Part shown: positions 3,054-36,358 of the stretch, piece after piece
Numbering within the stretch: the stretch's first letter is position 1
Layout: every line of letters starts with the position of its first letter
Source of the DNA: Negativicutes bacterium
Lineage (GTDB): Bacteria > Bacillota > Negativicutes > JAGPMH01
Direction: 5' to 3'
Length of the DNA: 42,319 bases
NCBI GenBank assembly: GCA_018052945.1
Contig: JAGPMH010000013.1
Location: 1-42,319 of the forward strand
Translations under genes and position numbers: made by a program
The notes under the pieces: generated by a model
Told to the model about the DNA's origin: nothing
Seen by the model: the letters and a program-made list of their open reading frames with translations, nothing else
Database searches by the model: none

Positions 3054-3964
3054 TAGCCTTCTTTTATGCTAATATTATTATTTTGTCTTTTACTAATTAA
3101 TAGTTGTTGCTCTAAGTTTCTAATTAAACTCTTCAAGGTGTCCTCAGGATAAATAATTACTCCTGCTATTGATACTTTTATTTTATGATTTTCATATCCT
3201 AAAATAATAGATTGTTCAATTAAAGTTTTAAACTTGTTACTCCAATTCAGTAAGGTATTAATTTTATTACTGTTTATAATAATAATAAATTTACCACCAT
3301 ACCACCTTGTAACAAAGCAGTCTGCGATATCTTCTAAATTATTAACAAGCGTTTGTCCAAGTACCTTTAATAAAAAATCGCCACCTTCCAATCCTCCAAC
3401 ATTGTTAAATTCTTGGAGGTTATGAATATCAATTACTAGCAATCCATATTGTGTATCCAAGGGATTTATTTTAGCCTCATTTAAAATTTTAAGAAGTTTA
3501 CTTTCCATATACTCTTTATTCGGCAAACCTGTTATCGAATCAATATAAGCTGTTTTTACTAATTCTTTAATAACATCCGGACGGGCGGAAGTGGTAAATT
3601 GATCTCTTTTAATAAAAAATTCAATTGCACCAATTATTTTTTTATTTTGATTAAAAATCGGTACCATTCTTAAGGATATCGGAATACGATAGCCGGTTTT
3701 ATGACTTAAAAATAAATTATGTTCACTAACCTTACCCTTATCCAGTAATTCTTGAAATGGACATTGGTCTAAACAAAGTTTTTCACCGCTTTCATTGGTA
3801 TGGACAATTTCACTAAGGCTACAGTTTTTGCCGATAACACTTTTTGCATCATAACCGGTTAACTTTTCTGCCGCCTTATTCCAAAATAAAATTTTTTGTT
3901 TATCGTCAATAATATAGGCCGGTTCAAATAATTGATCTAATATTTCAATATATTTAACTATCAT
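3053..3964 (-). CDS. PAS-domain protein with a degenerate GGDEF domain
   Basis: 303 residues: an N-terminal PAS domain (about 1-115) and a GGDEF-type domain (about 130-300). The PAS part carries GKNCSL and, further on, KLCLDQCPF, a cysteine-bearing PAS variant common in bacterial signalling proteins. The second domain keeps the family fold marks (DSITGLPNKEYM, LLVIDIHNLQEFN, GGLEGGDFLLKVLG), but the catalytic signature reads RWYGGKF instead of R-x-GGDEF: the first Gly and both acidic residues are replaced. It therefore probably cannot make cyclic di-GMP and may bind nucleotide or act as a sensor. Start 3964 was chosen because AGGGG lies seven bases upstream; an in-frame GTG/ATG at 4000 would overlap the upstream gene. 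It follows the MORN gene by 19 bp, probably in one operon. Confidence 0.8.
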   Translation of the reverse strand: MIVKYIEILDQLFEPAYIIDDKQKILFWNKAAEKLTGYDAKSVIGKNCSLSEIVHTNESGEKLCLDQCPFQELLDKGKVSEHNLFLSHKTGYRIPISLRMVPIFNQNKKIIGAIEFFIKRDQFTTSARPDVIKELVKTAYIDSITGLPNKEYMESKLLKILNEAKINPLDTQYGLLVIDIHNLQEFNNVGGLEGGDFLLKVLGQTLVNNLEDIADCFVTRWYGGKFIIIINSNKINTLLNWSNKFKTLIEQSIILGYENHKIKVSIAGVIIYPEDTLKSLIRNLEQQLLISKRQNNNISIKEG

Positions 3965-3983: not shown

Positions 3984-5087
3984 TTATATCGGTTCACCAT
4001 TTAGCCAATAGCCTTCTTCAACATAACCATCACTGTAAGTATAAATTCCATACCCATCCATTAGGCCATAGGCAAACTCACCCTCATAAACATCACCATT
4101 CGGCCATTTGATAATACCATAGCCATGTAAATAGCCATTAACCCAGTCCCCATCATAAGTTGTTCCATCGTTCCACTTAAAAAAGCCCTTGCCTTCTTGA
4201 ACGCCATTAACAATATCACCTGTATAATAATCGCCGGTTTTCCAAGTAATCTTACATTTTCCGGTTCTGGCATCATTAACAAAATCACCCTCATAGACCG
4301 TTCCATCCTGCCATTTATAAACGCCTTTGCCATTTTGTTGACCATTGGCCCATTGACCGCTATAAACATCACCATTTTTCCATTTGTAAACACCATAACC
4401 AACTCTTAGCCCCTTAACAACACTACCGTCATAACTGTCTCCGGTAGTCCAGCTAATCTTCCCTTTGCCGGTCCGTTCATTATCAACAAAATCACCTTCA
4501 TAGACAGTCCCATCAGCCCAAGTATAAATTCCTTTGCCATTTTGCATTCCGGCTTGCCACTGTCCGCTGTAACTATCACCATTACTCCACTTTAAAACAC
4601 CTTTACCATCTCTTTTATTATCTTTAAATTGCCCCTCATAAATACTACCTTCACTCCAAAGATAAACACCCTTTCCTTCTTGATCATTATTTACAAATTC
4701 ACCCTTATAGCTATCACCATTACTCCAGATCAAACTACCTTTGCCGTGCATTTTGCTATCAACGACATTACCTTCATAAATAACTATGCCCACAATATCA
4801 ATGGTCGCTTTACCTTGAAATTTTCCTTTTTTCATATTACCGGAAAAAACTTCAATGACCTCATTATCAATATAAGTTGTTAACTTCCCTTTACCATTAG
4901 CATAATTTTCAGCATCTTTAGCACCATCCCAACTAAAAATCGTTCCAGCAAAAGGATATTCGTTCCAAAACTTAATATTTTCTTTCGTATTAGTCCATTC
5001 GCCGGCAAAAGCCGTTGTATTAAATACTAGCAAGATTAAAGCTAAAACCATTATTAATTTTACTTTATTAACAAACCTGTTTAACAT
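3984..5087 (-). CDS. Exported MORN-repeat protein
   Basis: 367 residues with an N-terminal signal sequence (basic start, hydrophobic residues about 10-27, probable cleavage after AFA) and then about eleven MORN units of 23 residues with the pattern G-x-x-Y-x-G-x-W/F-x-x-G-x-x-x-G-x-G-x-x-x-W-x-x-G. MORN repeats form extended beta-hairpin ribbons that act as scaffolds or bind lipid. Residues about 170-238 and 239-307 form a 69-residue higher-order duplication, exactly three units. No enzyme domain is visible, so the role is unknown; it would act outside the cytoplasmic membrane. It lies upstream of the PAS-GGDEF gene in the same orientation. The ribosome-binding site is weak, but this start gives the complete signal peptide. 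Confidence 0.85.
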   Translation of the reverse strand: MLNRFVNKVKLIMVLALILLVFNTTAFAGEWTNTKENIKFWNEYPFAGTIFSWDGAKDAENYANGKGKLTTYIDNEVIEVFSGNMKKGKFQGKATIDIVGIVIYEGNVVDSKMHGKGSLIWSNGDSYKGEFVNNDQEGKGVYLWSEGSIYEGQFKDNKRDGKGVLKWSNGDSYSGQWQAGMQNGKGIYTWADGTVYEGDFVDNERTGKGKISWTTGDSYDGSVVKGLRVGYGVYKWKNGDVYSGQWANGQQNGKGVYKWQDGTVYEGDFVNDARTGKCKITWKTGDYYTGDIVNGVQEGKGFFKWNDGTTYDGDWVNGYLHGYGIIKWPNGDVYEGEFAYGLMDGYGIYTYSDGYVEEGYWLNGEPI

Positions 5088-5436: not shown

Positions 5437-5649
5437 TTACACTAAGGCAATTTTATCAGTATTTTTAATATTAATCTCTGCAATACTGCTAAAGTCACCA
5501 TTATCATTGTAAAAAATATTCTTTGCAATAATACTGTTCATAACAGTAGTCACTTGCTCTTTAGTCAAATTTTCTTTAGGGTTATTGATATTAATACTGA
5601 CCTTTTTCCCTTGGGTAGTATTAAACACCATATTTAAAGATTTAGACAT
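5437..5649 (-). CDS. DUF2922 family protein
   Basis: 70 residues. The sequence SLNMVFNTTQGKKVSININN, then PKENLT and an AKNIF element followed by a final IKNTDKIALV strand, fits DUF2922, small proteins of unknown function that almost always sit beside DUF1659 and YvrJ genes. Start ATG 5649 is preferred over the adjacent GTG at 5652 because AAGGAGG lies seven bases before the ATG and only four before the GTG. No signal peptide or membrane helix. Co-transcribed with its neighbours (32 bp after DUF1659, 5 bp before yvrJ). Confidence 0.85.
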   Translation of the reverse strand: MSKSLNMVFNTTQGKKVSININNPKENLTKEQVTTVMNSIIAKNIFYNDNGDFSSIAEINIKNTDKIALV

Positions 5650-5681
5650 CACTCAACCTCCTTTCAAGAAATTAATAAACT

Positions 5682-30960: not shown

Positions 30961-31092
30961 TTTATAAATTGACAAAAACAAGATTTATTATTACAATATA
31001 GTTAACCAAATGAACAATATTGTAAATTATATAAACTATAATTCTAAAGATGTTTAAGTTAGTTGGTTACCATAGATAGTTTTAAAATTGCA

Positions 31093-31239
31093 GATTGGTA
31101 TTCAACTGAGAGAAAAAACAGTATTAATGGGTTATTATAGCAATAACATCTTTTGGGGATTAGATGTTAATTATTTTTTTACAAATTTGTTATTTCTTAA
31201 ATTGTAAATAGCTATTACAAAACTGTTGAATACCAATCT
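31093..31239. repeat. Non-coding element bounded by 15-bp inverted repeats (MITE-like)
   Basis: AGATTGGTATTCAAC at 31093-31107 is exactly inverted at 31225-31239 (GTTGAATACCAATCT). Similar TTTTAAAA-type sequence lies just outside both ends. The interior is about 117 bp, AT-rich, with a nested AACATCT/AGATGTT hairpin and no open reading frame of note. It could be a miniature transposable element or a structured RNA. Together with 30961-31092 (nothing recognisable) it fills the gap between the MarR terminator and the htpX promoter. Confidence 0.65.
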
Positions 31240-31266
31240 TGAGTTTTAAAAATTAAGAGATAATAT

Positions 31267-31295
31267 TTGACAATATTAAAGGTATATGATAATAT
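31267..31295 (+). promoter_or_regulatory. Probable promoter of the riboswitch-htpX transcript
   Basis: A perfect TTGACA at 31267-31272 followed 17 bases later by TAATAT (or 15 bases later by GATAAT). Transcription would begin about 10-15 bases before the riboswitch aptamer. Confidence 0.65.
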
Positions 31296-31317
31296 TAATG
31301 TGAAATTAATATTACTT

Positions 31318-31401
31318 CAAGGGGAGTAGCTGTACAACAACTGTCGTCAATACGAGCTTAAGCTCCGGCATTGTTGGCAATTTATTGCAAGCAAGACCTT
31401 G
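31318..31401 (+). ncRNA. yybP-ykoY (Mn2+-sensing) riboswitch aptamer
   Basis: The leader contains the family's conserved blocks in order: GGGGAGTAGC (loop L1 region), GTCGTCAATACG (L3 region, manganese-binding adenosine), a GAGC-TTAA-GCTC hairpin, CCGGC, TTGTTGGC, and AGCAAGACCTT closing helix P1 with CAAGG at the 5' end. This arrangement is that of the structurally characterised Lactococcus yoaB riboswitch. Mn2+ joins the two stem loops and stabilises P1. Because the 3' strand of P1 (31397-31401) overlaps the left arm of the following terminator, metal binding should prevent termination and switch the downstream genes on. Confidence 0.9.
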
Positions 31402-31433
31402 TCTCAGCATTTGTTGAGGCTAGGTCTTTTTAT
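31393..31433 (+). terminator. Riboswitch expression-platform terminator
   Basis: AAGACCT (31393-31399) pairs with AGGTCTT (31422-31428), extended inward by CTCAGCA/TGTTGAG, and ends in T5. It shares bases with aptamer helix P1, so the two structures exclude each other. Confidence 0.88.
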
Positions 31434-31472
31434 TTAACTATTTTTAATAACAATGAGAGGGGATTTTATTTT

Positions 31473-32333
31473 ATGAATACTTTTAAAACGACTATATTAT
31501 TAACTGCTTTAACCTTATTATTAGTAGGGGTTGGCGGTGCGGTAGGTGGTAAAACCGGAGCATCAATTATGCTTATTATTTCCTTAGCAATGAATTTTGG
31601 TAGCTATTGGTTTAGTGATAAAATTGTCTTAAGCATGTATAATGCTCAACCGGTGAATGAAAATCAAGCACCGGATTTATATAATATGGTAAAAAAATTG
31701 ACGCAAAATGCGAAGATGCCAATGCCGAGGGTTTATGTGATTAATACTGAAATGCCGAATGCTTTTGCAACGGGGCGTAATCCGGAAAATGGTGTTGTTG
31801 CAGTTACTACCGGGATTATGAAAGCATTAAATTATGACGAATTAGAAGGGGTAGTAGCACATGAGTTAGCTCATATTAAAAATCGTGATACTTTAATTAG
31901 TACGATTGTTGCTTCTATTGCCGGTGTTATTTCTTGGATTGGCACGATGGCTCAATGGGCTGCCATTTTGGGAACTGGGCGTAGTGATGAAGAAGATAAT
32001 GGCGGAGGTATTGCCGGTTTACTATTTACTATCATTGTGGCACCATTAGCGGCAACCTTAATTCAAATGGCAATTTCGCGGTCGCGTGAATTTGAAGCTG
32101 ATGAAGATGGTGGAACTATTTGTGGTAATCCATTAGCTTTAGCAAGTGCGTTAAAGAAAATAGAGCATTACTCTAAGTATGGGGTAATGCAAGAAGCTAC
32201 TCCGGCGACAGCCCATATGTTTATTATTAATCCGTTAAGTGGTAGCGGTAGAGCGATAATGAATTTATTCAGTACTCATCCGACAACGGCGAAAAGGGTT
32301 GAAAAATTAGAAGCTTTAGCAAGACGGAGATAA
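31473..32333 (+). CDS. htpX: Membrane zinc metalloprotease HtpX homologue
   Basis: 286 residues. Two N-terminal transmembrane helices, then the catalytic zinc motif in VVAHELAHIKN (HExxH), further hydrophobic segments, and SREFEADEDGG with the third ligand Glu. HtpX is a membrane-integrated protease that degrades misfolded membrane proteins. ATG 31473 has GAGAGGGG upstream; longer in-frame starts would lie inside the riboswitch and its terminator. Control by an Mn2+ riboswitch is the notable point. A terminator follows, so downstream genes depend on readthrough or own promoters. Confidence 0.93.
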   Translation: MNTFKTTILLTALTLLLVGVGGAVGGKTGASIMLIISLAMNFGSYWFSDKIVLSMYNAQPVNENQAPDLYNMVKKLTQNAKMPMPRVYVINTEMPNAFATGRNPENGVVAVTTGIMKALNYDELEGVVAHELAHIKNRDTLISTIVASIAGVISWIGTMAQWAAILGTGRSDEEDNGGGIAGLLFTIIVAPLAATLIQMAISRSREFEADEDGGTICGNPLALASALKKIEHYSKYGVMQEATPATAHMFIINPLSGSGRAIMNLFSTHPTTAKRVEKLEALARRR

Positions 32334-32341
32334 TATTAATT

Positions 32342-32381
32342 AAAAACGGTCTGTTTAGAATATCTAAAAAGACCGTTTTTT
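32342..32381 (+). terminator. Intrinsic terminator after htpX
   Basis: A 10-bp stem (32342-32351 with 32371-32380) with an inner TTTAGA/TCTAAA helix and a T-run, nine bases after the htpX stop. Confidence 0.88.
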
Positions 32382-32416
32382 GTGTAAAAAGATAATTTTT
32401 AATAAAGAAGGATGTT

Positions 32417-33697
32417 ATGAAAAAAATATTTTTAATAATAATGTTGTTAATCATTAGTAGTAATAATATTTCACAGGCACAAGGAATAGTACAAGAAACA
32501 CAACTATTGAGACCAGAAGCTTTTTATGATTATCAAAATGGTAATAATATTATCTTATCTAATCAACAGATTCTAAAGTTAAATCAAAGCATCTCACAAC
32601 AGCAGTCAGCTTTATGTGATTTAAAAAATTATCAATCTATTATTAATAAAACAGCTTTAAGTAATAAAATAAAATCATCTAGCACTATTTTAAATGAATA
32701 TGATTATTTAGGTTCAGGGTTAATAACTACGGCGCTGAAAAATGATATTATAGCAGAGTTAAATTTAGAAAAAATTCCGACAGAAATAAAGTATGGTGTT
32801 ACTGTAAGGCGTACTAATATTAGAACATTACCTAGTGCTCAAGGTTTATATGAAAGTCTGAAGTCTACTAAATTTGATTATTTGCAAGAAACTGTTGTTG
32901 ATCCCGGTACTGCGGTGGTTATTTTACATACCAGTAAAAATAATCAGTTTTATTATATTCAAACAGCAGATTATAGTGGTTGGGTGGCGACAAAAAATGT
33001 CGCAGTTGCTACAAAATCAGATTGGTTAAAATATTTGGAACCGCAAGATTTTATGGTGGTTACTGCTAATAAAAAAATAATAAACTTTAATGGTGAAGTT
33101 TTAACTTATCAAATGGGTGCTAAAATTCCATTACTAAAAGAAGAGGGCAGTAATAAAATATTAATGCCTTACAATAAAGATGGCTTAAATAATTATTATT
33201 TGAAGCTTAATAATAACGATGGCTTGAGTGAAGGATATTTACCTTATACTACTAATAATATTATCAAACAAAGTTTTAAAATGTTAGGTGATGTTTATGG
33301 TTGGGGTGGCTTAGAGAATAGTGTTGATTGTTCCAGTTTTGTACAAAATATTTATAAAACCTTCGGAATAAATTTACCGCGTAATGCTGATCAGCAAGAG
33401 CTTAGTTTACAACGACATTATTATAATGCTGTCACGGATAACTTAAAAAATGCTGATATTAATAAATTAACTAAAGGTAGTTTATTATTTATGGATGGTC
33501 ATGTGATGTTATATTTAGGTAGTATTAACAATGAACCTTATATCATTCATGCACTAGGAAGTTATAGTATTAGGCAAGGTGATGGCACTATGAAAAAAAT
33601 ACCGATACTAAAAGTTGTTGTTAGCGATTTGCAGCTACAACGTTATAGTGGCAAAACTTTCTTAACAGCGTTAACAAGTGGTGCAGAAATAAAATAA
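32417..33697 (+). CDS. Exported NlpC/P60 peptidoglycan endopeptidase with SH3-type domains
   Basis: 426 residues. Signal peptide (about 1-21, ending SQA or AQG), an N-terminal stabilising region (about 25-130), SH3-like modules (VTVRRTNIRTLPS ... GTAVVILHTSKNNQFYYIQT ... YSGWVATKNVAV), and a C-terminal NlpC/P60 domain (about 290-426) with the catalytic Cys in YGWGGLENSVDCSSFVQN, His in GHVMLYLG and a third polar residue near IIHALGSY. This architecture is seen in gamma-D-glutamyl-diamino acid endopeptidases that trim stem peptides. It precedes the P-type ATPase by a few bases, suggesting one operon; whether it is reached from the riboswitch promoter is unclear. Confidence 0.88.
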   Translation: MKKIFLIIMLLIISSNNISQAQGIVQETQLLRPEAFYDYQNGNNIILSNQQILKLNQSISQQQSALCDLKNYQSIINKTALSNKIKSSSTILNEYDYLGSGLITTALKNDIIAELNLEKIPTEIKYGVTVRRTNIRTLPSAQGLYESLKSTKFDYLQETVVDPGTAVVILHTSKNNQFYYIQTADYSGWVATKNVAVATKSDWLKYLEPQDFMVVTANKKIINFNGEVLTYQMGAKIPLLKEEGSNKILMPYNKDGLNNYYLKLNNNDGLSEGYLPYTTNNIIKQSFKMLGDVYGWGGLENSVDCSSFVQNIYKTFGINLPRNADQQELSLQRHYYNAVTDNLKNADINKLTKGSLLFMDGHVMLYLGSINNEPYIIHALGSYSIRQGDGTMKKIPILKVVVSDLQLQRYSGKTFLTALTSGAEIK

Positions 33698-33712
33698 AGG
33701 ATGGTGGTAACA

Positions 33713-36358
33713 GTGCTTAAAGTAGGTTTAAAAGAAACAGAAGTACTAGATAGTCGTCAAAAATATGGCAGTAATAAACTAACAGAAGTAGAAAGCGAAG
33801 GCTTTAAAAAGAAATTAATAAAGAATTTAGGCGATCCAATGATTAAGATATTGTGCTTTGCCTTGTTTATTAATATTATCTTTACCTTAATGGGAGAAAC
33901 TCCATGGTATGAATCTTTAGGGATAGCTTTTGCCATTGTTATTGCAACATTTGTTTCAACATACTCAGAGTATAGTAATGAGAATGCGTTTAAAAAATTA
34001 CAAGAAGACGCTTCAAAAATTTATTGTAAAGTTTATCGTGAAGAAGAAGTTAAAGAAATTATTATTGATGATATTGTAGTAAATGATTTATTAATTTTAC
34101 AATCAGGTGATAAAATTCCGGCGGATGGTATTTTAATAGAAGGTCATATAAAAGTTGATCAAGCTGTATTAAATGGTGAAAGTAAAGAAGCAACGAAATT
34201 AGTGCAGCCACCTGATTATCAGACTGAAGATAATCAAATGGATTTTTATAATGAATATAAGGTTTTTCGTGGTACCGTAGTTTGTCAAGGTAATGCCGTA
34301 ATGAAGGTGACCAGTGTTGGCGATAATACTGCTTATGGACTAATTGCTAAAGAATTACAAAATGATGAAGAACGAGACTCTCCATTAAAGGTTAAATTAA
34401 CAAAATTAGCGCATGATATTAGCAAGTTGGGATATTATGGTGGTATTTGTATTGCCTTTGCCTTTTTATTGCAAAAAATTATTGTGCATAATAATTTTAA
34501 TATTCAGCAGATTATCATATATTGTTCTAACTATATGAATTTAATGCATGATATTATTCAATCTATTATTTTAGGTGTTGTTATTATTGTAATGTCTGTA
34601 CCGGAAGGCTTACCATTAATGATTGCCTTGGTCTCAGCTTTAAATATGAATAAAATGTTGAAAGACAATGTGTTAGTGCGAAAGATTTCAGGGATAGAAA
34701 CTGCCGGTAGTTTAAATATTCTATTTAGTGATAAAACCGGTACTATTACCAAAGGACAATTAGAAGTTGTAAACTTTATTGATGGTAGTGGTCAGTCCTG
34801 TAGAAAGTTTGAAGAAATTGAAGGAAAATTAGCTGACTATGTTTCTTTAAGTTTATTACATAATACTACGGCCGTTATTAGTCAAGATAATGGCGAAAAG
34901 AAAGTGCTAGGTGGTAATGGGACAGAAAAAGCAGCGTTAGAATTTGTTTGTGGCGATAGTTGCAGAGTTTTTAATGTAGAAAAAGTTGATAATATTCCAT
35001 TTGATAGTGCAATTAAATATTCGGCGACTGAAGTAAAAGGGGAATATAATTATACTTTAATAAAAGGTGCACCGGAAAAAATCATAGAAAAATGTCAATA
35101 TTTCTATGATAAAAATGGTGTAGCACAAGATTTTACCGATAAAAATATTATTGAAGATAAAATTAGTGAATTAGCACAAAAGGCGATTAGAGTTTTAGCA
35201 ATAGCGGTTTCAAAAGATAGTATTGTTGATGATCAATTACCGCCTAATAATGATTGGATTTTTATTGGGTTATTAGGTATTCGTGACGATGTGAGAGAAG
35301 AATCAATTCAAGCGATTAAAGAAGTACATGCTGCTGGCGTGCAGGTAGTGATGATTACTGGTGATAGACAAGATACGGCTTTAGCAATAGCAAAGGAAGC
35401 TGGAATTTTAACTTCACAGCAAGATATTGTCATAACTTCGGCAGAATTAGCACTGTTGTCAGATCAAGAGATTAGTACTAAATTGAAAAATATTAAAGTA
35501 ATTGCAAGAGCTTTGCCAACTGATAAAAGTAGATTAGTAGGAATTGCCCAAAATCTTAACTTAGTGGTAGGTATGACCGGTGATGGAGTTAATGATTCGC
35601 CGGCACTAAAAAAAGCTGATGTTGGCTTTGCGATGGGTAGTGGGACTGAAGTTGCTAAAGAAGCTAGTGATATTGTTATTTTAGATGATAATTTTAGTTC
35701 TATTGATAAAGCGATTTTATATGGCAGAACGATTTTTAACAGTATTAGAAAATTTATTATCTTCCAATTAACAATTAATATTAGTGCGGTGTTGGTATCT
35801 TTTATCGCACCTTTAATGGGGATGGAAAATCCGATTACAATTACACAAATATTATGGATTAATTTAATTATGGATACCTTTGCGGCGTTGGCTTTTGGTG
35901 GAGAACCAGCCTTAAGGCGTTATATGAGTGAGAAACCGAAAAGTAGAGAAGAAGATATTGTTAGCCAAAGAATGAAGCAAGCGATTGCGGTTAATGCATT
36001 ATGGATTGTAGCGCTAAGCTTATTAATTTTATTAACTGCAATTGGTCAATCATTATTTAGGTTTGCTCCTAATTATGAATATTTATTAACGGCTTACTTT
36101 ACCTTCTTTGTCTTTATTGCTATTTTTAATGCTTTTAATTCAAGAACAGATTCGATAAATATCTTTGATAATATTACGAAAAATCAAGGGTTTATTCAAA
36201 TGATTATGCTAATGTTATCGATACAAATTGTTATGACTTATTTTGGTGGTCATATTTTAAGATCATATGGTTTAACGTTTGAAGAGTGGTTAGTTATTAT
36301 ATTGCTGGCAGCAACTATTATTCCAATAGATATGCTTAGAAAAAAAATAGCAAAATAA
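33713..36358 (+). CDS. P2-type cation ATPase (Ca2+/Mn2+, PMCA-like)
   Basis: 881 residues. Ten-helix P2 ATPase with the actuator motif VLNGESKEA, helix-4 PEGLPLMIALVSAL, phosphorylation motif LFSDKTGTITKGQ, the nucleotide-domain KGAPEKI, hinge TGDGVNDSPALKKADVGFAMG and helix-6 QILWINLIMDTFAALAFGGE, which is very like plasma-membrane calcium ATPases. Predicted export of Ca2+ or Mn2+. In Lactococcus an ATPase of the P2 class (yoaB) is under the same riboswitch class seen upstream of htpX, so Mn2+ is a plausible substrate here; that is inference. GTG 33713 has GGTGG about five bases upstream; ATG 33701 is directly abutted by AAAGG and is less likely. Confidence 0.9.
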   Translation: MLKVGLKETEVLDSRQKYGSNKLTEVESEGFKKKLIKNLGDPMIKILCFALFINIIFTLMGETPWYESLGIAFAIVIATFVSTYSEYSNENAFKKLQEDASKIYCKVYREEEVKEIIIDDIVVNDLLILQSGDKIPADGILIEGHIKVDQAVLNGESKEATKLVQPPDYQTEDNQMDFYNEYKVFRGTVVCQGNAVMKVTSVGDNTAYGLIAKELQNDEERDSPLKVKLTKLAHDISKLGYYGGICIAFAFLLQKIIVHNNFNIQQIIIYCSNYMNLMHDIIQSIILGVVIIVMSVPEGLPLMIALVSALNMNKMLKDNVLVRKISGIETAGSLNILFSDKTGTITKGQLEVVNFIDGSGQSCRKFEEIEGKLADYVSLSLLHNTTAVISQDNGEKKVLGGNGTEKAALEFVCGDSCRVFNVEKVDNIPFDSAIKYSATEVKGEYNYTLIKGAPEKIIEKCQYFYDKNGVAQDFTDKNIIEDKISELAQKAIRVLAIAVSKDSIVDDQLPPNNDWIFIGLLGIRDDVREESIQAIKEVHAAGVQVVMITGDRQDTALAIAKEAGILTSQQDIVITSAELALLSDQEISTKLKNIKVIARALPTDKSRLVGIAQNLNLVVGMTGDGVNDSPALKKADVGFAMGSGTEVAKEASDIVILDDNFSSIDKAILYGRTIFNSIRKFIIFQLTINISAVLVSFIAPLMGMENPITITQILWINLIMDTFAALAFGGEPALRRYMSEKPKSREEDIVSQRMKQAIAVNALWIVALSLLILLTAIGQSLFRFAPNYEYLLTAYFTFFVFIAIFNAFNSRTDSINIFDNITKNQGFIQMIMLMLSIQIVMTYFGGHILRSYGLTFEEWLVIILLAATIIPIDMLRKKIAK

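Follow-up and report, generated by a model that had tools for sequence, protein, structure and literature searches.

In the window, by which we mean the whole 42,319-nucleotide stretch of Negativicutes DNA analysed here, a Mn2+-sensing riboswitch of the yybP-ykoY family probably serves htpX as a transcriptional ON switch; the membrane protease that htpX encodes would clear faulty membrane proteins, and the arrangement most likely came about when terC was lost. The element, its overlapping terminator, the identity of the gene, the recurrence of the pairing and the position of the protease in its tree are all read from sequence. The riboswitch class is itself known and is represented here by a form lacking helix P2; htpX as its output, alone or with terC, is apparently unreported, as our literature search found no report of htpX under a Mn riboswitch in either arrangement, an earlier mention in the tables of the 2015 discovery papers being possible. 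The features on which the argument turns are as follows.

31267..31295, + strand: plausible promoter, -35 TTGACA (31267-31272), 17-nt spacer, -10 TAATAT (31290-31295) preceded by TG; 10 of 12 consensus matches
31318..31401, + strand: Mn2+ (yybP-ykoY) riboswitch aptamer without P2, identified by covariance models R2 and R1, covariation and folding
31318-31322/31397-31401, + strand: P1.1, the switch helix
31323..31328, + strand: 5' side of L1, GGAGUA, within the block GGGGAGUAG; docking loop, invariant alignment columns
31329-31331/31390-31392, + strand: P1.2
31335-31376, + strand: P3
31347..31353, + strand: L3, UCAAUAC, holding the invariant A31349
31377-31388, + strand: P4
31393-31396, + strand: 3' side of L1, AAGA
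31393..31432, + strand: intrinsic terminator (stem 31393-31428, then a U tract) that cannot form together with P1.1
31473..32333, + strand: htpX, membrane zinc metalloprotease (M48; HELAH and SREFEAD motifs), NCBIfam equivalog
32342..32380, + strand: intrinsic terminator after htpX, about -18 kcal/mol, z -4.3
32417..33697, + strand: SH3_6 plus NlpC/P60 peptidoglycan hydrolase (nlpC) by domain match, putative member of the riboswitch unit
33701..36358, + strand: PMCA-type P-type ATPase (PEGLP in M4), TIGR01517 at 597 bits (cut-off 507), control by the riboswitch unsupported

A manganese riboswitch lacking P2

A preliminary description of this DNA had placed a yybP-ykoY riboswitch at 31318-31401 and proposed the Rfam model RF00080 as its check, with the lack of a significant match counting as refutation. 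The Rfam covariance model (177 positions) gives the leader only 14.0 bits against a gathering cut-off of 45, and returns no match over the whole genome. However, that cut-off is an unfair requirement because two proven leaders, alx and mntP of E. coli, are also missed by it, and we dropped it as arbiter; the refuting outcome did occur but is invalid, and the placement itself is upheld. Among 13 named leaders scanned at gathering score with the Rfam 15 model, together with L201 and L202, the sole match was L061, which possesses a P2. Model R2, a covariance model built from 15 aptamers that all lie outside the Negativicutes and thereby avoiding circularity, scores 78.1 bits (E 1.1e-17) over 31314-31407 of the window, its only match in the 42 kb, which excludes a chance motif as the source of the leader match. 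Model R1 was built within the class from the aligned htpX leaders of relatives; over the whole genome its single match is the htpX leader of the window. Both models recover the E. coli alx and mntP leaders (45.2 and 22.4 bits with R2, respectively), and a scan of the E. coli htpX region with R2 found no such element. In the alignment of relatives' htpX leaders, 84.7% of cells in helices P1.1, P1.2, P3 and P4 are paired, and pair covariation (0.316 vs. 0.203 +/- 0.019 in shuffles) also exceeds that of slid controls. The core features of the family are present as invariant alignment columns: the L1 block GGGGAGUAG, an L3 with its invariant adenosine, and a CAAGACC-type 3' side of L1. Moreover, A31349 aligns with the Mn-discriminating A41 of the Lactococcus lactis riboswitch (UCA41AU43UC), whose N7 contacts Mn2+, and L1 has a role there as the docking loop (PMC6754395). 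At the level of sequence, membership of leader 31318-31401 in the yybP-ykoY Mn2+ riboswitch family is confirmed.

The 3' strand of P1.1 (31397-31401) is also part of the terminator stem 31393-31428, an overlap that predicts a transcriptional ON switch, in agreement with the preliminary description, which had read it as switching on by Mn2+. By secondary-structure energies only, the P1.1 form lies 0-3 kcal/mol from the minimum free energy for an RNA ending at 31405-31420, and once the 3' arm of the terminator is complete the terminator is favored by about 13 kcal/mol. For L. lactis it has been shown experimentally that Mn2+ stabilizes P1.1 and blocks termination (PMC11087558). By a crude rule, an overlapping terminator accompanies 61 of 69 leaders in the class, and most of the other eight carry, by eye, an equivalent GAGAC/GTCTC stem. 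Upstream, the promoter at 31267/31290 is suggestive only, as promoter-like sites in a consensus scan of the window are no commoner than in shuffles. A 5' hairpin at 31313-31328 that could sequester P1.1 is specific to the window and was not seen in relatives' leaders. Between a MarR gene and the htpX promoter lies an inverted repeat (31080-31251; 27-nt arms, 89% complementary, 118 nt apart) that folds far better than shuffles (z -4.45); it matches no Rfam family, and its arms are absent elsewhere in the window.

Only three unpaired nucleotides separate P1.2 from P3 in the window aptamer, so that P2 is missing and three helices meet at the junction. The same absence is common to many leaders in other phyla, before terC, P-type ATPase and GDT1 genes, and P2 is here treated as a variable feature of the family; the idea that its loss specially marks htpX leaders was rejected, as the leaders of those other genes also lack it. 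Current RF00080 searches at the cut-off miss such P2-less Mn riboswitches, and their regulons are consequently likely to be under-annotated. The junction thus departs from the four-way junctions of the solved structures, and binding of Mn2+ is a prediction only. As background, yoaB of L. lactis encodes a P-type ATPase, and the alx and mntP riboswitches of E. coli possess a P2. The L. lactis yoaB riboswitch resembles that of the window in its L1 and L3 sequences, its Mn-contacting adenosine, a P1.1 that is exclusive with the terminator and its ON logic, whereas its junction is four-way, P2 included, and its target is yoaB rather than a protease gene (PMC6754395, PMC11087558). The E. coli alx and mntP elements are likewise matched by both R1 and R2, but their genes are annotated as Mn2+ exporters, in contrast to the protease that comes first here; for mntP, control is described as translational or Rho-linked (PMC11647493).

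Recurrence of the pairing and a probable loss of terC

Among the 30 HtpX loci of the Negativicutes that are closest to the protein of the window, 18 have the element upstream on the same strand. R1 matches occur in 134 of 380 genomes of the class and in 60 of 102 genera. Most of the about 72 regions read in the class open with terC; terC-htpX pairs, htpX on its own, GDT1 and P-type ATPase genes are also represented. The HtpX loci we collected, a set partly selected by riboswitch and containing some repeats, comprise 31 with the order riboswitch-terC-htpX and 30 with riboswitch-htpX. Outside the class, a sample of named riboswitches was picked by pattern with matches listed only, and its frequencies are not estimates for bacteria. 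Among the matches listed, riboswitch-htpX is found in Nitrospirota (L069, L081, L100, L136, L165), in a metagenome-assembled genome (MAG; L077) whose HtpX groups with the Nitrospirota ones, and in Geobacter-like bacteria (L092, L133, L148); HtpX identity was verified for L081, L148 and L069. As judged from these loci, the pairing recurs in at least three bacterial phyla, often with terC. The earlier suggestion of a link between Mn and envelope quality control is strengthened by this recurrence and by the terC-htpX operons. In nine rows of the HtpX tree, all class copies, no riboswitch was found in the stretch examined, and control of HtpX by Mn is therefore not universal.

Other genes also stand behind Mn riboswitches in this sample. 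In L069, a Nitrospirae MAG labelled "Mn-Nitrospirae" (MnB_6), two riboswitches a short distance apart (3433-3549 and 4560-4661) precede htpX and a P-type ATPase, one each. L077 likewise carries two (285-388 and 5544-5654), one before htpX and the other before what is by eye a carbonic-anhydrase-like gene, with a P-type ATPase further on. A Tim44-like protein gene lies shortly downstream of the riboswitch in the Geobacter genome L096, and a similar-looking protein occurs in the class (L208). The first gene is a DedA/VTT-domain protein in L185 and L105; UPF0182 membrane proteins follow the riboswitch in the Nitrospirae-type MAGs L065, L074 and L144, with a P-type ATPase next in two of them; and predicted LysR-like regulators stand directly behind it in the proteobacterial MAGs L064, L134 and L176.

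The HtpX of the window falls within a clade of 32 rows with 98% support, of which 29 have the order riboswitch-terC-htpX; the window, G016 and G302 make up the other three, with the direct riboswitch-htpX order. No TerC was found in the genome of the window or in that of G302, and G016 retains one elsewhere in its genome. In the same tree, loci from Selenomonas and Megamonas are intermixed with those of class family f12, and this identifies the class as Negativicutes. Because the protein nests in a terC-htpX clade and its own genome is devoid of TerC, the direct order of the window most likely arose when a riboswitch-terC-htpX operon lost its first gene, terC. The earlier remark that htpX, rather than an exporter, comes first is accordingly correct as to gene order, but is best explained by this loss. 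Outside the clade of the window, direct control of htpX may predate the joining of terC, the HtpX tree being unrooted.

The downstream ATPase and competing readings

Assignment of the first gene to htpX, as originally proposed, is secure (M48B; NF002826 388.1 bits vs. a cut-off of 369), with both the HExxH motif (HELAH) and the downstream glutamate (SREFEAD) in place, and it is the sole HtpX of its genome. That genome is 99.8% complete, and a search that left CDF exporters aside found no MntP, no GDT1 and no DtxR-type regulator (MntR) in addition to the missing TerC; it did find one Nramp protein and one full-length type-II P-type ATPase. As far as models can detect, its only Mn riboswitch serves a protease gene first. 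The ATPase, matched by a model for PMCA-type Ca2+ ATPases (TIGR01517), starts 3 nt past the nlpC stop, and the two genes are probably co-transcribed across this gap. A second P-type ATPase, a 697-aa frame, lies on the - strand at 584-2089 and is 26-37% identical, in pieces, to the type-II pump.

The preliminary description had left room for control to extend over nlpC and the ATPase. One may then suppose that the ATPase is the key target, high Mn2+ allowing read-through past 32342-32380 so that a riboswitch-htpX-nlpC-ATPase operon exports Mn2+, with htpX merely its first gene. The shared strand, the short gaps including that before the ATPase, and the status of this pump as the only full-length type-II enzyme of a genome without the four other functions all favor such a scheme, as does the finding of a P-type ATPase as first gene at 28 of 112 riboswitch loci with a callable first gene among the matches listed, and at five loci of the class. 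We nevertheless judge it rather improbable. The terminator noted after htpX is indeed there, a strong one between htpX and nlpC; the closest ATPases (52-55% identity, five genomes, class family f15) have no riboswitch at their loci; the full array was absent from the related class loci examined; and in many lineages htpX sits behind the riboswitch without any ATPase. The extension is thus unsupported, and so is the ATPase as a conserved partner of the riboswitch. It is still the best exporter candidate in this genome and may have a putative role in Mn handling.

A less probable reading, which we consider distinctly unlikely, holds that HtpX degrades a Mn importer such as the single Nramp at high Mn, a proteolytic shut-off in place of the missing exporters and MntR. 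The gene content of the genome would suit it, and the cleavage of MgtE by YqgP with FtsH offers a precedent (PMC7231995); but larger genomes with more TerC genes have riboswitch-terC-htpX operons as well, the substrates of HtpX are putative here, and the exporters covered by the gene search were TerC, MntP and GDT1. Very improbable, finally, is the view that the aptamer now binds a different divalent metal, or that it survives as no more than a degenerate relic. The lack of P2 and the score far below the Rfam cut-off might suggest as much, yet every core residue is invariant, the helices covary, the overlapping terminator is intact, and P2-less leaders across phyla also precede terC, P-type ATPase and GDT1 genes.

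Manganese excess and membrane-protein quality control

Under the preferred reading, in which the riboswitch switches on htpX itself, the response to Mn, the induction of HtpX and its physiological role are what we infer. At high Mn2+, the ion would be held between L1 and L3 at A31349, the Mn2+-bound aptamer would dock and P1.1 would be stabilized; the terminator at 31393-31428 could then not form and htpX would be transcribed. When Mn is in excess, HtpX would in turn remove membrane proteins that have been damaged, carry the wrong metal or have stalled at the Sec translocon, and its action is probably exerted around that translocon. In Bacillus subtilis, the TerC proteins MeeF and MeeY (MeeY being YkoY) co-purify HtpX, FtsH and SecDF (PMC10550928), which brings TerC, HtpX and a Mn riboswitch into one physiological context, as here. 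The B. subtilis link is one of physical co-purification, whereas here relatives have terC and htpX together in one riboswitch operon, and the window has the direct riboswitch-htpX order. Also in B. subtilis, YqgP with FtsH cleaves MgtE and protects from Mn toxicity (PMC7231995), such that Mn excess raises membrane proteolysis as we propose; there, however, a domain within the protease itself, not a riboswitch, senses the metal, and the protease is of another family.

Mn excess and the clean-up of membrane proteins therefore appear to be wired together. The outputs described for Mn riboswitches are exporters and TerC proteins, to which HtpX, directly or together with terC, would add a membrane protease. 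More tentatively, and with a good deal of doubt, HtpX may be a genuine and widely conserved output of Mn2+ riboswitches. In genomes that have lost TerC and lack MntP, GDT1 and MntR, the single Mn riboswitch would then control a protease, and membrane proteolysis, perhaps also of the Mn importer, would be how these bacteria respond to excess Mn. The occurrence of riboswitch-htpX, with or without terC, in several phyla provides independent genomic support for the co-purification of TerC with HtpX and the secretion machinery, and the question of why Mn excess should call for membrane-protein quality control becomes directly testable.
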